From Streptomyces coeruleorubidus (GTDB lineage: Bacteria > Actinomycetota > Actinomycetes > Streptomycetales > Streptomycetaceae), in NCBI RefSeq assembly GCF_028885415.1, contig NZ_CP118527.1:3596001-3660000 (forward strand): a stretch of DNA of 64,000 nucleotides. The letters are read 5' to 3'. Position 1 is the stretch's first letter. Every line of letters begins with the position of its first letter. The position numbers were made by a program, and so were the translations under genes. Below the pieces are notes generated by a model. It searched no databases. It was not told the origin of the DNA and saw nothing but the letters and a program-made list of their open reading frames with translations. Shown in pieces: positions 50,321 to 61,249 of this stretch.

Positions 50321-50334
50321 TGGGAGCGCTCCCA
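50321..50334. promoter_or_regulatory. CebR box before cebE
   Basis: TGGGAGCGCTCCCA, the perfect 14-bp palindrome recognised by CebR, 117 bases before the cebE ATG and about 40 bases after a TTGACA hexamer, so binding would cover the transcription start area. Confidence 0.93.
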
Positions 50335-55309: not shown

Positions 55310-55375
55310 ACCGCGTTTCCGCAGCCGCGGGCCACGGCGGGGGAGGGCGGGCGGAGCGGCCTGTGGGGGGCGGGG

Positions 55376-58300
55376 TCAGTTTCCGAGTCCCAGGTGGGCG
55401 AAGAGCACGTTCCGTGCGCGCAGTACGGCGGCCGGATCGAGCGCGGCGAGGACCGGGGCGGCTTCGTCCCAGCCCTCGGGGATGAGGGCTTCGGCGAGGA
55501 GGGCCCGGGCGCGGGGGATGTCCGGGCCGGACGGGGGCGGGAGGAGCAGGGCGGCGAGGCGACGGGCGGCCGGTGGGACGAGCAAGGGGCCGCCGATGAA
55601 CGGACCGGCCGTCACTTCGTCGTGCACACACGCGGTATAGGCGGCGAGGTGCGCGCATGCCTCCGCCCGTTCCCTGTCGCTCCTCGGGCGCAGGGCGATG
55701 CTCCGGGCCGTCTCGTGGTCGCCGAGTGCGGCGTGGCCCAGCGCCAGGACGGCCGTCACCCGGGTGGGCGCGGGCCACTCACCGTGCCTGTGCGCCATGG
55801 TGTCCAGGTCGTGTGCGGCGGCCGGATCGTCGGCCAGCACCGCCAGCGTGAGCATCGCCTGGTCGTGGTCCTCGAGCTCCTCGCGGCGGCTGCGGTCCGC
55901 GGCCCGGTCCCGCAGGAGCCGTCCGATGCGGGCGCCGAGCTCGGGGTCGTGGCGGCCCACGGCGACGAGGATCCGGACGAGGCGGAACACAGTCGCGTCG
56001 CGCAGGTCCGGCAGGACACTGTCCAGCCATCGCCGGGCCGGTCCCCGGGCATGCGGCCACAGTCCTTCGACCACTGCTGCCCACACGTCGTCGCGGTTGC
56101 CCGCTTCGAGCACGGCTCCCGACTTCGGGAGCTTCTCGACGACCTCGAGGACCCGCTCGGCCGCCCCCACTCCCGCCATGGCCTGAAGGGCGGTGACCAT
56201 GACGGTCTGCGACATCTGGAGGAAGTCAGGCGCGAAGGCGAGGTCGTACGCCCGTTCCGCGAAGCGCACAGCCCGGTCCCGGTCCGCACGGACCAGGGCC
56301 AGGGAGGCCACGGCACATCCCCAGGAGCGCATCATCGGCAGACCGACCGCCTCCAGGAGCCGCTCGGCGTCATCGGGTCGCCCGATCGCGGCGAGCGCGC
56401 CGGCGAAAGTGCCCAGGCCGACGTCGCGCGCGATGGAGGTGCTGGTCCCCGACGTGCGGTCCCCGTGCTCCGCGTGCCGGAGCAGGCGCAGCGACCGTTC
56501 GGGGTGGTCGGCGGCGACGTGCGCGGCGAGCGCGGCGTACGCCTCGGCCATCACCTCCCGTTCGTCGAAGTCCCCGCTGTGCAGGAGGAGTTCCTCAAGG
56601 TCGTCGGCGTGACCGGCGGCCGCGAGGAGCCGCACGGCGTGCCCGACGGTGCCGCGCCCGCTGGTGACGTACCCCCGTTGTGCTCCCTCCTGGATCGCCT
56701 TCCACGCCTGCGCCGCCCGGCCCGCGCGCGCCCACCCGATGACGATGTCCAGCCAGAGATCGCGCCGGGCCCGGATCTGCACGGGATCGGGAGCCAACAC
56801 CATGGACCCCACGAGCCGCTGGGCCTCGGCCAGTCCGCCCGTCGCCGCGAGTCCGCGTGCCACGTCCTGCAGCTGCCACACATCACGTGGCTGTGCCCGT
56901 CCGTCCAGTGCCGCCGCGGCCAGCGAGGCCAGGGCTTCGGCGTCGCCCGGGCGGGCCCCGCGCAGTGCCTGAGCGGCGACGGCGGGGAGGTTCCCCGGGT
57001 CGCCCGCGCGGCGTCGGGAGAGCTCGGTCACGAAGTCGTACAGGCGACTCGCGTCGTCGGGAGAACCGGCAGCCGCCCATGCCTCGGCGACCGTCACCAG
57101 CACCGGTACGCGATCGGTCCGGGGCCACACCGTCTCGGCCGCCCGTTCGGCCAGGCGCAGGACTTCGGCGCCGCGCACCGGGTCCCGCAGCGCCAGGGCG
57201 GTACCGAGCAGCGCCTCGACGAACGCCTCGGTGCTCTGACCGTTGGTCGGCCGCGGCAGTTCGCACAGCGCGCGCACCGCCTCGTCGGCTCGGCCGGACC
57301 GTGCCAGCGCCATGGCCAGAACTCCGTGGGCCGCCATGCAGTGCGGGTGGCCGCGGTCGCTGGATGTCTTCGCTTCCTCCCTCGTCAGCCGCACCGCCTC
57401 CCGCGCCAGTCCCACCGCCCGCCGGTCCCCCGCCTCCGCCAGCACACGCGCCACCGCGGCCAGTGCCCGCAGCCGGTCGAGCGGCTCGAAGACACTGCGG
57501 GCCAGCCCGATGGCGTGCCGCACTCGTCCCAGCCGGGCGTACACCGCCGGAATGTCCGGATGCAGGTTCTTGTTGCGCTGGGCCACCAGGTCCCCCGCCA
57601 CCGCGAGCGCCGCCAAGGCCCCCAGGTCGTCGGGAGAGACCCGCCGCACCGTCTCCCTCGCCGCCGCGATCTCCGCGAGGCACGCCGCATCGCTCCCCGT
57701 GGCCTCCCGCAGCCGGTCACGGCGCCGGGCATCGACGGCCAGGTCCGTGAGTCGGCCCGCCTCCCCGAGGAACACGAGGAGACGGCCGTACGGCTGGAGC
57801 AGGTACAGGGGGGTCTCCTCCGGCCAGCCGCGCTTGTCGTAGGAGTCCGCCCACGCGTGCAGACGCTCCAGGTAGGCGCCCAGGTCCGGCCCGAGTTCCT
57901 CCTGGGCGGTGGTGAGAAGCGTTTCGTGGGCGAAGAGATACCCGCGGGTGGAGGTGTACAGGGCCAGGTCGTCGCCGTAGCCCTCGGGTCCGCCGCCGCC
58001 TCCCATGCCGCCGACGTCACCGCGCAGCCGCAGGATCCGACCGAACGCGCTCCCCAACCGCCGACGCAGCTCATACGCCGGCTCGCCGGTGAGTTCGCGC
58101 AGGTCGTCGACCGTGAGCGTGCCGCGTGCGGCGGTGAGGAGGCCGACGAGGTCGCGCTGGAGGCGGTCGCCGGAAAGTGCTTCCCCCAGGTCGTACTTGG
58201 TCTCGTGCTCGGTGTGGCGGGAGGCGGCCGTGGCCGACAGCCCCACCGCCCGGCAGGAGCGCAGCGGGTGTCCGCCCTTGACGTCGGCCGGGAGGCCGGG

Positions 58301-59542
58301 GCCGACGCGGCTGGTGACCAGGACGCGGACGCCCGGCGGGGGGCGTTCGGGCAGGAGGGAGGCGATGCTCGTGCCGGTGCCGCCGGGGGTGAGGGACTGG
58401 TCCTCGTCCAGGCCGTCCACCACCAGGAGCAGCGTGCCGCCGTCGTGTGCCACCCGCTCCGCCGCCTGACGCAGCAGCAGCCGGCGTTCGCCGTCGCGGG
58501 CGGTCGGGGAGCCGGTGCCGCTCGGTTCGCGGCCCGCGAGGGCGGCGAGCTGGTCGATGACGGCCGCGGTGTACGCGTCGCCGTCGGACTGGCTCGCGTG
58601 GCGCGCGGTGATGAAGAACCAGACCGGTACGACTCCGCGCGGCGGATGGAGGGCGAACCACGCCGCCAGCGCCGTCTTGCCGGCCCATGGGGGCCCCTGG
58701 AGCCAGAGGTACGGTTCCGGGCCCGCGCAGAAGGAGACCAGGTCCGCGAGCTCCGTCTCCCGCTCCTTCAAAAGCTCCGGCGCGATGTCCGCGAGGTGGG
58801 CGCGGTAGACCTCCTGGATGAGGTCGAGACCGGTCGTCGGCGCGGCCGAGGTCAGTGCGCCGTGGCCGACTCCGTGCCCCAACAGCCGCTCCAGTTCCGC
58901 CCGTTGGGAGGAGTCCACGCCGTACGCCCAGCGGTCCACCCGGCTTGCGGCGATCCGGCCCGGACCGTCCCCGCGGTGGCGGCGCGTGACGACGCCGACC
59001 AGCAGGCCGCCGCTGAAGACCGCCGCGCCGGACATGCCCTCCCACGCGTCCCGCTCGGGGTCGGGGTCCTCGGCGGGCGGTGGGGTGACGCCCAGGTCCA
59101 GCGTCCCCTCACGCCGGTTGGACAGCACCGCGCAGGTCGCGTGGACGTGCTCGGCGTCCCGGAACCGCGCACCGGTGGTGTCGGTACGGAGTTTGAAGCG
59201 CGGAAAGCCCATCGCGGTGCACCGGATCACCGCGTCCTGCTCACCGACACGGCCGTACGACACCGGCGGTACGTTGCCGATGTGGCTCTCGGGAACCGCG
59301 AGCACCGCCACGTCGATCGCCGCGTGCGCCCATTCCACCGCCGCCTCGACGATCCGCTCCCCCGGCCGGTCTGCCTGGAACCGGACGCGGATGCCCGACG
59401 CGCCCTCGACGACGTGCGCAGCCGTCAAGACCCGTCCCGGCGCGACGAGATACCCCGAGCCACGGCGGCCTGCGCCGGGCAGGCCGACGATGATCTCCGC
59501 GACCCGTTCCGGCCGCAGCCCCCGGTCAGCGTTCGCCGTCAA
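55376..59542 (-). CDS. Trypsin-like protease - STAND/NACHT NTPase - helical-repeat protein
   Basis: 1388 residues in three parts. (1) N-terminal trypsin-like serine protease with a complete triad: His43 in LTAAHV, Asp77 in IDVAVLAV, Ser171 in EGMSGAAVF. (2) P-loop NTPase: Walker A GPPWAGKT (283-290, Lys289) and Walker B LLLVVDGLDE (Asp376), followed by a winged-helix-like region. (3) From about 640 to the end, Ala/Leu/Arg-rich helical repeats like TPR/HEAT solenoids. No signal peptide, so cytoplasmic. This matches NTP-dependent conflict or apoptosis-like switches: the repeats sense a trigger, the NTPase oligomerises and the protease is activated. The TTG start overlaps the small upstream gene by 17 bases. 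Trigger and substrate unknown. Confidence 0.85.
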   Translation of the reverse strand: MTANADRGLRPERVAEIIVGLPGAGRRGSGYLVAPGRVLTAAHVVEGASGIRVRFQADRPGERIVEAAVEWAHAAIDVAVLAVPESHIGNVPPVSYGRVGEQDAVIRCTAMGFPRFKLRTDTTGARFRDAEHVHATCAVLSNRREGTLDLGVTPPPAEDPDPERDAWEGMSGAAVFSGGLLVGVVTRRHRGDGPGRIAASRVDRWAYGVDSSQRAELERLLGHGVGHGALTSAAPTTGLDLIQEVYRAHLADIAPELLKERETELADLVSFCAGPEPYLWLQGPPWAGKTALAAWFALHPPRGVVPVWFFITARHASQSDGDAYTAAVIDQLAALAGREPSGTGSPTARDGERRLLLRQAAERVAHDGGTLLLVVDGLDEDQSLTPGGTGTSIASLLPERPPPGVRVLVTSRVGPGLPADVKGGHPLRSCRAVGLSATAASRHTEHETKYDLGEALSGDRLQRDLVGLLTAARGTLTVDDLRELTGEPAYELRRRLGSAFGRILRLRGDVGGMGGGGGPEGYGDDLALYTSTRGYLFAHETLLTTAQEELGPDLGAYLERLHAWADSYDKRGWPEETPLYLLQPYGRLLVFLGEAGRLTDLAVDARRRDRLREATGSDAACLAEIAAARETVRRVSPDDLGALAALAVAGDLVAQRNKNLHPDIPAVYARLGRVRHAIGLARSVFEPLDRLRALAAVARVLAEAGDRRAVGLAREAVRLTREEAKTSSDRGHPHCMAAHGVLAMALARSGRADEAVRALCELPRPTNGQSTEAFVEALLGTALALRDPVRGAEVLRLAERAAETVWPRTDRVPVLVTVAEAWAAAGSPDDASRLYDFVTELSRRRAGDPGNLPAVAAQALRGARPGDAEALASLAAAALDGRAQPRDVWQLQDVARGLAATGGLAEAQRLVGSMVLAPDPVQIRARRDLWLDIVIGWARAGRAAQAWKAIQEGAQRGYVTSGRGTVGHAVRLLAAAGHADDLEELLLHSGDFDEREVMAEAYAALAAHVAADHPERSLRLLRHAEHGDRTSGTSTSIARDVGLGTFAGALAAIGRPDDAERLLEAVGLPMMRSWGCAVASLALVRADRDRAVRFAERAYDLAFAPDFLQMSQTVMVTALQAMAGVGAAERVLEVVEKLPKSGAVLEAGNRDDVWAAVVEGLWPHARGPARRWLDSVLPDLRDATVFRLVRILVAVGRHDPELGARIGRLLRDRAADRSRREELEDHDQAMLTLAVLADDPAAAHDLDTMAHRHGEWPAPTRVTAVLALGHAALGDHETARSIALRPRSDRERAEACAHLAAYTACVHDEVTAGPFIGGPLLVPPAARRLAALLLPPPSGPDIPRARALLAEALIPEGWDEAAPVLAALDPAAVLRARNVLFAHLGLGN

Positions 59543-59837
59543 CCTCGTCGCCCGCGATCAGCACGGTCTGCGGCACGCCCCCGTCCGCCGCTACGGCTCT
59601 GGGGGTGAGGGTGAGCGTGACCCGCTGGGTCTCGGCCTGCGCGTACTTGCCGTTCGCCCCGGCGTCGACGACCCACAGCCGGACCTTGGCGTCCCCGCCC
59701 GCCTCGCGCGTGACGGCGATGGACGCCTCGACCTCCACGGGCCCCAGCTCGAAGCGCAGGATCTCCCCGTCCCCGTCGGTCAGGGCGGCGGTCAGCTGCT
59801 TTCGCAACTCCCGGACCATGTCGGCCAGTTCGATCAC
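59526..59837 (-). CDS. Trypsin-co-occurring domain protein (trypco2-like)
   Basis: 103 residues: an N-terminal helix (MIELADMVRELRKQLTAALTDG) followed by a compact beta-sandwich-like sequence (LRFELGPVEVEASIAVTREAGGDAKVRLWVVDAGA) ending in VTLTLTP. This is the pattern of the trypco2 family described in computational studies of protease-STAND conflict systems, as I recall. GTG 59837 follows GGGGGA. It overlaps the protease-NTPase gene by 17 bases, so the two products are made together and probably interact, for instance as an adaptor or inhibitor. Confidence 0.75.
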   Translation of the reverse strand: MIELADMVRELRKQLTAALTDGDGEILRFELGPVEVEASIAVTREAGGDAKVRLWVVDAGANGKYAQAETQRVTLTLTPRAVAADGGVPQTVLIAGDEVDGER

Positions 59838-59929
59838 GCGTCCCCCTCGTGCAGCGGTGCTCAGATGCTACAAGTCGGCACGGCGGCCCGGCTCCCGTAT
59901 CGCGCCACGTCGACCCGACAGCGCCGGCT

Positions 59930-61249
59930 TCATCGCGCCGTTCCCGTTCCCGACAGCAGGCGACGGGTCGTCGTCACACCCCACTCGTCCAGGGACAGCA
60001 GGCGGTCGCTGGAGGCCATCAGGCCGCCCGTGGACTCCACGTGCGCCGCCCACTGTTCGCGGGTCTCGACAGCCGGGCGGGCCATCAGGCAGTCGGGGTC
60101 GTTGATCCACAGACGGCCGTGCTGCCACTGGCGGCCGACGCCGGTGAACTCGGCCGGGTCCTGGCCGGGCTGGCTGTAGTCGTCCGCCTCCGGGCGGCGG
60201 TGCGGGGCCGTGTCGGGGCTGACGCGCATGGCGTCGAACAGGCCGATGGAGGGGAGCATCGGGGCGCCGCAGCCCAGGAGGTAGGAGTCCGGGCCGATCG
60301 CGTCGCGGATCAGGCGGATGCCGGAGCGGTAGGCCGTGAGGGGGTCGACGTCCGCGTGGCGTACGCCGTCCAGGGCGCCCGCGTACAGGAAGTCGACCTT
60401 GAAGTAGTCGTAGCCCTCGGCGCGCAGGGTGGTGAAGACCTCGGTCAGGTACGCCGCCGCGTCCGGGTGGGTGGTGTCCAGGACGCGCAGGTCGTGGCCC
60501 CAGTTGCGGCCCGCGTGGGCGAAGCCGCCGGCGGGGTCCCGGACCAGCCAGCCGGGATGTTCGGCGGCCAGTTCGCTCGCCGGGTCCACGAGGAACGGTG
60601 CCGTCCAGATGCCGGCGCGGCGGCCGCGGGAGCGGATCTTGTCGGCGATACCGGCGCGGGAGCGGAAGCGGCCGGAGAGGGTGAGCCAGTCGCCGAGGGC
60701 CTGCTGGTAGCCGTCGTCGATCTGGACGACGTCGACGGGCAGGTCGAGGGTGTCCATCGCGCGGAGGTTCTCGTGGATGTCGTCCTCGGTGACCTCCGTG
60801 AAGTACTCGTACCAGGAGCACCAGACGGTGGGCGCCGGGCGCGGGGCCGCGATGCCGAGACCGCAGGCCCAGTCGCCCAGCACCGACTGGATGTCCTCGC
60901 CCGTCCACTCCTTCACCAGGCCGTCGGCAGCGACCTCCGCGACCCCGTCCCGTACGGCGAGCCTGATCGACGGCACCTCGCGCGTCGGCTCGGCCGCCGC
61001 CCACAGCCGGACCGCCGAGCCGTCGCCGGGGTCGAGCGCCAGCAGTCCCTCGCCCTGGAAGACGCCGGCGGGGACGGTGACGCCGGGCCGGTAGCAGACC
61101 GTGGCCCAGTTGGCTCCCGTCGGGCGATACGGCGCCGCGCCGAGGAGGTAGGCGCCGCTGGGGCTCCAGGACTGCCAGCCCTCCTCGTGGACTCGGGCGT
61201 TGCGCTGGTCGACGGGCACGGAGGCCAGCGGCGTGAAGGGGTGGTGCAC
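59930..61249 (-). CDS. Alpha-galactosidase-like glycoside hydrolase (GH36/melibiase)
   Basis: 439 residues, shorter than full GH36 enzymes (about 700). The N-terminal beta domain contains EEGWQSWSPSGAY. The barrel contains CSWYEYFTEVTEDDIHENL, VDVVQIDDGYQ, and the nucleophile Asp286 in YFKVDFLY. The acid/base region is near DAMRVSPDTAPHRR, and the C-terminal end lacks the usual beta-sandwich. Alpha-galactoside hydrolysis is likely. No signal peptide, so it acts on imported sugar. It is the last gene behind the sugar ABC importer genes on the same strand, 22 bases downstream. Confidence 0.85.
   Translation of the reverse strand: MHHPFTPLASVPVDQRNARVHEEGWQSWSPSGAYLLGAAPYRPTGANWATVCYRPGVTVPAGVFQGEGLLALDPGDGSAVRLWAAAEPTREVPSIRLAVRDGVAEVAADGLVKEWTGEDIQSVLGDWACGLGIAAPRPAPTVWCSWYEYFTEVTEDDIHENLRAMDTLDLPVDVVQIDDGYQQALGDWLTLSGRFRSRAGIADKIRSRGRRAGIWTAPFLVDPASELAAEHPGWLVRDPAGGFAHAGRNWGHDLRVLDTTHPDAAAYLTEVFTTLRAEGYDYFKVDFLYAGALDGVRHADVDPLTAYRSGIRLIRDAIGPDSYLLGCGAPMLPSIGLFDAMRVSPDTAPHRRPEADDYSQPGQDPAEFTGVGRQWQHGRLWINDPDCLMARPAVETREQWAAHVESTGGLMASSDRLLSLDEWGVTTTRRLLSGTGTAR

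Follow-up and report, generated by a model that had tools for sequence, protein, structure and literature searches.

Trypsin-family domains occur in several described systems close to the one reported here. The accessible part of PMC7159879 places Trypco1/2 next to VMAP trypsin domains, mentions trypsin-STAND fusions in NucA operons and predicts domain plans of this type in multicellular prokaryotes; related peptidase and STAND systems are treated in PMC8195603 (accessible part). In Hachiman and AVAST proteins, the trypsin domain activates a nuclease encoded upstream (PMC12799240, portion available), and lysis requires the Walker residues of LypB (PMC13236601, portion available). We analysed a 64,000-nucleotide stretch of Streptomyces coeruleorubidus DNA (contig NZ_CP118527.1, positions 3,596,001 to 3,660,000; hereafter, the window) and a two-gene unit on its minus strand. 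The first gene (59526..59837), identified by Pfam and its relatives, encodes a 103-amino-acid Trypco2 protein (PF19631). The second (55376..59542) encodes a 1388-amino-acid trypsin/NACHT-STAND/helical-repeat protein, as indicated by its open reading frame (ORF), Pfam, an alignment of homologs and a structure model. The unit is real, apparently intact and accessory, and belongs by its sequence to the predicted Trypco/trypsin conflict class on a chassis resembling nucleotide-binding leucine-rich repeat receptors (NLRs). We regard it as probably a self-contained NLR-like conflict switch with a protease effector, that is, a minimal variant of the predicted Trypco/trypsin conflict systems, and immunity as the likely function of the two genes. 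The hypervariable sensor repeats and the co-travel of Trypco2 with trypsin, including its exceptions, are new in this analysis; no title on the hypervariable two-gene form was found in the literature searched, mostly without subscription papers, and its absence from print is not claimed.

A trypsin domain and a neighbouring Trypco2 gene are common to this unit and the Trypco1/2-trypsin modules of the VMAP/MoxR/vWA ternary systems (PMC7159879, accessible part), whereas here the trypsin domain is fused to its switch, a NACHT/STAND NTPase. Pfam listed no VMAP-C domain in either protein, and membership of the VMAP systems was rejected on this basis (the search did not extend to MoxR and vWA genes). 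Three VMAP-C matches do occur elsewhere in the genome (G000:C1:3095973, 5062702 and 7426553), at least 0.55 Mb from the unit and outside the window. In AVAST type 1 (Avs1b) and protease-Hachiman, as in the present unit, an N-terminal trypsin-family domain is carried on an immune sensor and the partner gene lies immediately upstream (PMC12799240, portion available); their partner is a metallo-β-lactamase-fold nuclease, whereas the partner here is Trypco2. Membership of Avs1 was rejected because the Avs1b match reached 26.3 bits against an NCBIfam cut-off of 1500, covered the trypsin part only and was accompanied by Trypco2 upstream. CARD-NLR systems and LypABC likewise pair a trypsin-like peptidase with an NLR-like TPR protein within a single system (PMC13236601, portion available). 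There the parts are divided among several proteins and include a CARD-like domain, whereas here they lie in one polypeptide; Pfam listed no CARD (the structure model covers residues 229–1388). STAND_TPR (PADLOC PDLC01173), a predicted ATPase with Xre-HTH and TPR that in Streptomyces is associated with cas1-less type I-E, shares the STAND-plus-repeat chassis over residues 248–1384 (1.2e-112). Its N-terminus is an Xre-HTH, whereas ours is trypsin, with a Trypco2 gene upstream. Compared with Apaf-1, CED-4, NOD2 and the plant NLR RPP1 (sequence identity 12–15%), the protease is built in and the repeats are TPR/PPR-like hairpins.

Third-position GC was 0.89 in the 1388-residue ORF and 0.93 in the 103-residue ORF, with Streptomyces-type codon-position GC in both. 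Homologs of the large protein numbered 474 at E ≤ 0.001, and 102 other relatives were found for the Trypco2 protein. These many homologs, together with the codon-position GC, indicated that neither ORF is a chance frame. The best 120 of the 474 homologs were listed, and the 112 with lengths of 1251–1499 residues were aligned, 8 being dropped by length. The two ORFs overlap by 17 nt. The first start codon in frame of the larger one is TTG, which may be its actual start, the aligned site being TTG in 10 of 12 close loci. Checking of the ORFs and alignment confirmed the coordinates, lengths and residue numbers of an earlier note on this DNA, and Pfam, alignment and model agreed with its plan of trypsin, P-loop NTPase and helical repeats in 1388 residues. 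The small partner, described there as trypco2-like, is a genuine family member by Pfam: the match at residues 2–79 scored 97.9 bits, above the curated cut-off of 24.2, across the whole domain (positions 1–78 of 78).

Residues 1–230 (58853..59542, minus strand) form a trypsin-family protease domain according to the alignment and Pfam Trypsin_2 (residues 28–184; 44.2 bits, cut-off 27.6). The ordered triad His43, Asp77 and Ser171 with GxSG places the domain in this family, proteolysis itself being predicted. Asp77 and Ser171 were kept in all 112 aligned homologs and His43 in 110, with gaps in the other two. Position 165, six residues ahead of Ser171, corresponds to trypsin's Asp189; it was D in 70 of the 112 homologs, S in 30, G in 10 and another residue in 2. 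Asp165 would thus give an Arg/Lys-type specificity pocket here, and relatives may have other specificities. Met170, invariant in 112 of 112, occupies the place of trypsin's Asp194, on which trypsinogen-type salt-bridge activation depends. Such activation would therefore not be available, and control of the protease by neighbouring domains is more likely. The best NCBIfam and PDB sequence matches of the domain were to MarP, below cut-off or weak, and the PADLOC models matching it were Avs1b and LmuA.

The nucleotide-binding NACHT/STAND region follows at residues 231–480 (58103..58852, minus strand), with the P-loop GPPWAGKT at 283 and Asp376 in VVDGLDE, as seen in the alignment and in Pfam matches to NPHP3_N (32.9 bits, cut-off 24.8) and NACHT (28.7 bits, cut-off 26.7), both at residues 276–412. 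Lys289 and Asp376 were kept in all 112 aligned homologs, so that the Walker A Lys, the Walker B Asp and the C-terminal helical repeats of the STAND/NACHT class are all present. The argument of the earlier note that active-site completeness suggests a working system is fair for the protease and the NTPase, whose residues were kept in 110–112 of 112 homologs, but it says nothing on immunity. Residues 481–720 (57383..58102, minus strand) are a conserved middle that, in the model, comprises the switch end and the first helical hairpins; a winged helix may lie within it. The model of residues 229–1388 was confident (predicted local distance difference test, pLDDT, 86.2; predicted template modelling score 0.83) and, beyond about residue 540, helical throughout, with repeats resembling TPR/PPR hairpins. 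Its structural matches to Avs3 (the best by VIA-align), MalT, CED-4, Apaf-1 and NOD2 favoured the STAND-type protein proposed in the note, although ORC/Cdc6 ATPases equalled or outscored most of them.

The remainder of the protein behaved differently from the switch and effector. Mean column entropy was 1.19 bits in the trypsin domain, 1.04 in the NACHT region, 1.30 in residues 481–720 and 2.35 in residues 721–1320 (55583..57382, minus strand), the hypervariable helical-hairpin repeats that we propose as the sensor on the basis of entropy and substitution ratios. The C-terminal 68 residues (1321–1388 plus stop, 55376..55582, minus strand) form a better conserved cap, with an entropy of 1.60 bits and a mean identity to the query of 0.54–0.60. 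In 15 repeats chosen by eye and anchored on the turn Gly, an anchor that itself raises conservation there, positions −7, −5, −4, −3, 0, +5 and +8 had 1.1–1.75 bits and positions −15 to −9 and +12 to +21 had 2.3–3.1 bits. The repeat scaffold is kept and the remainder varies. As to a diversity-generating retroelement, Pfam listed no lectin-type domain (template repeats and a reverse transcriptase were not searched for).

In the cleanest pair, the unit and its relative in G152, the uncorrected proportion of synonymous differences (pS) of the large protein was 0.25–0.32, similar to that of bglC (0.28). The ratio of the non-synonymous proportion to it (pN/pS) was 0.36 for trypsin, 0.36 for NACHT, 0.32 for residues 481–720, 0.64 for residues 721–1320 and 0.45 for the C-terminal part; at the most variable sites it was 0.74. 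The sensor therefore changes about twice as fast as the regions upstream (0.64 versus 0.32–0.36), which does not by itself show positive selection. At the same site in S. lomondensis (L035), bglC was 95% identical (pS 0.13) and GH36 91% (pS 0.18), with a pS of 0.41–0.48 for the large protein and 0.24 for Trypco2. This suggests a replaced receptor allele in S. lomondensis, the alternatives being independent insertion and differing codon constraint. A hypervariable, allele-like receptor at one locus of a multicellular bacterium might also point to a developmental or self-recognition switch (mycelial programmed death, allorecognition between strains) instead of antiviral immunity, the more so as such domain plans have been predicted in multicellular prokaryotes (PMC7159879, accessible part). 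However, VIA-align ranked an antiviral protein, Avs3, highest, and we consider self-recognition improbable.

For the conflict switch that we favour, the following course can be envisaged. The hypervariable helical solenoid would bind an invader-derived ligand, the NACHT/STAND module would then swap nucleotide and oligomerise, and this clustering would switch on the N-terminal trypsin domains. The protease would cut either a partner protein or some cellular protein, with death or growth arrest of the infected hyphal compartment as the outcome. Trypco2, encoded just before the protease gene and probably translationally coupled to it, would most likely serve the peptidase module as a small adaptor or cofactor, acting in docking, gating or substrate presentation, and would not be an obligatory cis-acting antitoxin.

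Gene content suggested that Trypco2 tends to follow the trypsin domain as a portable, not obligatory, companion. It adjoined 19 of 23 distinct full-length-type loci. The triad was present in all four exceptions (L071, L084, L085 and L087), and all four genomes carry a Trypco2 elsewhere. Trypco2 was also present beside all three trypsin-only relatives (L091, L098 and L103), whose trypsin and Trypco2 were 59–66% and 53–64% identical to ours, respectively. By Pfam, their chassis differ from that of the present unit: NB-ARC and TPR in L091, and nSTAND1 in L098 with HEAT below cut-off; L103 matches query residues 2–293 only. No Trypco2 match was found at any of the 16 examined NACHT-only loci (17 of 31 NACHT-only rows were fetched, and tblastn matched all but L108, which had no Trypco2 either). 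Among the 31 Trypco2 loci viewed with short flanks (L001 and L004–L033), 24 showed a trypsin ORF, one of them the remnant in G021, and 7 (L009, L011, L013, L014, L015, L031 and L033) showed none. Over 13 close loci, the distance-matrix correlation was 0.58 for trypsin-Trypco2, 0.44 for trypsin-NACHT, 0.36 for trypsin-middle and 0.81 for NACHT-middle. Two results speak against our reading. Over 19 full-length loci, Trypco2 distances followed NACHT (0.91) and the middle (0.90) as well as trypsin (0.89), so that the co-travel rests mainly on the gene-content pattern. Furthermore, at each of the 12 close loci with both, Trypco2 had a lower pS (0.24–0.44) than the trypsin domain, so that Trypco2 and the receptor need not be replaced together. 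A broader and distinctly tentative proposal is that the unit could be what polymorphic NLR genes are in plants. Allele-like protease-armed receptors with diverging sensor repeats and a conserved switch and effector would be exchanged as whole alleles, which have diverged further than the genes beside them, by recombination between conserved ends at one chromosomal site in a Streptomyces lineage, and Trypco2 would be a portable helper that accompanies trypsin domains on four sensor chassis.

The role of Trypco2 allows two further explanations. The predicted structure of the protein was of low confidence (pLDDT 56.3), and when its family profile was searched against PDB sequences, no match was better than weak (best E 0.074). 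The trypsin domain might act on Trypco2 as its substrate or pro-effector. The Trypco2 gene directly precedes that of the protease, in the manner of the gated nuclease of protease-Hachiman and AVAST type 1, of which Trypco2 would be the positional equivalent; the Avs1b and LmuA matches of the trypsin domain and the presence of Trypco2 beside trypsin-only but not examined NACHT-only relatives fit this explanation. However, no other domain was recognisable by Pfam in its 103 residues, it also occurs beside EAD2-VMAP proteins (L011, L013) or a caspase gene (L009) with no trypsin ORF in view, and it is missing beside the four triad-bearing loci. A substrate role is thus rather unlikely. We judge similarly doubtful an inhibitor or antitoxin that silences the protease. 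The small size of Trypco2, the overlapping frames and its usual place adjoining and upstream of a potentially harmful protease would suit such a role, but the protease is intact without adjacent Trypco2 in G152 and three more divergent loci, although the Trypco2 elsewhere in these genomes could allow rescue in trans. In addition, G021 keeps Trypco2 (80%) in a 14-kb stretch where only residues 1–73 of the partner were found.

Several related loci showed other arrangements. The Trypco2 relatives at L011, L013 and L009, the last with its caspase gene on the opposite strand, were 53–59% identical to ours. A second Trypco2 of the same genome (G000:C1:3051042-3051272; L088:5701-9287) precedes a trypsin-NACHT protein of 1083 residues with the triad present, Thr at the 165 position and HEAT just below cut-off, followed by a GH43 gene. 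Two caspase-HATPase-trypsin-NACHT fusions (L089:7360-10656, L090:8340-11657) have Ala at the trypsin Ser and no Trypco2 match nearby, the effector role apparently having been taken over by the caspase. By Pfam, the N-termini of ten NACHT-only relatives showed an NTPase domain or nothing, and no Xre-HTH was seen. A small ORF (129–169 residues) lies just 5' of six of the NACHT-only relatives (L096, L099, L100, L101, L105 and L107); none of the six had a Pfam match above cut-off, and they are possibly other partner families.

Full-length-type relatives, here matches that begin no later than query residue 14 and reach at least residue 700, were found in at least 18 of 392 Streptomyces genomes (two candidates scored per genome), one of them (G246) with an internal stop, and any Trypco2 in 96 of 150. 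The position between bglC (GH1) and GH36 agrees with the placement between sugar loci in the earlier note. By blastn, the unit is inserted there relative to two relatives, G123 (GH1 97%, GH36 93%) and G196 (GH1 95%, GH36 89%), with an approximate extent of 55310..59950 (unstranded). At these empty sites, the flanks are similar and the GH36 3' end comes straight after the hairpin of the bglC terminator, the match ends lying 78 and 67 positions apart; exact words common to both insertion ends were 8 bases at most. A universal housekeeping gene at this locus, which the earlier note had named as a refutation of its proposal, was rejected on the low genome count and the empty sites. Among 22 plasmids matched at 1e-20, one, typed mobilizable, carries most of the unit (87%) and a trypco2 gene; no match was found among 50,697 phage records. 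In 40 hand-picked, non-random regions downstream of bglC, mostly from genomes without the unit, the bglC-GH36 interval ranged from <100 bp to several kb between species. A defence hotspot or island was rejected: of four interval proteins checked in other genomes, two (L117, L149) were GH42 beta-galactosidases and two (L142, L139) had no Pfam match above cut-off.

This location raises the question whether the protease serves the sugar locus in a housekeeping or regulatory role, for example as a regulator of ceb/bglC or of the GH36 importer. Although 11 of the 24 distinct full-length-type loci (own plus 23, with L073 and L037, one contig, counted once) lie within 2.6 kb of bglC, the other 13 lie elsewhere. 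The unit is also far rarer than close GH1 matches, which were found in 355 of 392 genomes (E ≤ 1e-190; not all need be bglC orthologs), GH36 being found in 54 of 392, and the sugar genes remain in place at empty sites. For the CebR operator we assumed the motif TGGGAGCGCTCCCA; at ≤2 mismatches, the window matched only at 50321 and 53805, the latter with one mismatch and directly before bglC, and no such box lies inside the unit. Upstream of the Trypco2 start is a conserved element, ACTTGTAGCATCTGAGCACC...GGGGGA (59838..59876, minus strand); by eye, a GTAGCATC-like box and a GGGGGA-like ribosome site precede Trypco2 in 15 of 19 sequences, at bglC and elsewhere. The element is likely a promoter −10 box with a ribosome site and is not confined to loci at bglC, so that the unit probably carries a promoter of its own; a scan for sigma-70 promoters and terminators gave no match, including at this element. 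Taken with these points, a sugar-locus role is very improbable.

In the literature searched, Trypco2 is named in only two papers, whose accessible parts treat it by sequence prediction. The two-gene version, with its single switch protein, would offer a simple setting for the role of Trypco2 and the substrate of the protease, and the hypervariable solenoid may provide natural receptor alleles for mapping recognition by a bacterial NLR-like sensor.
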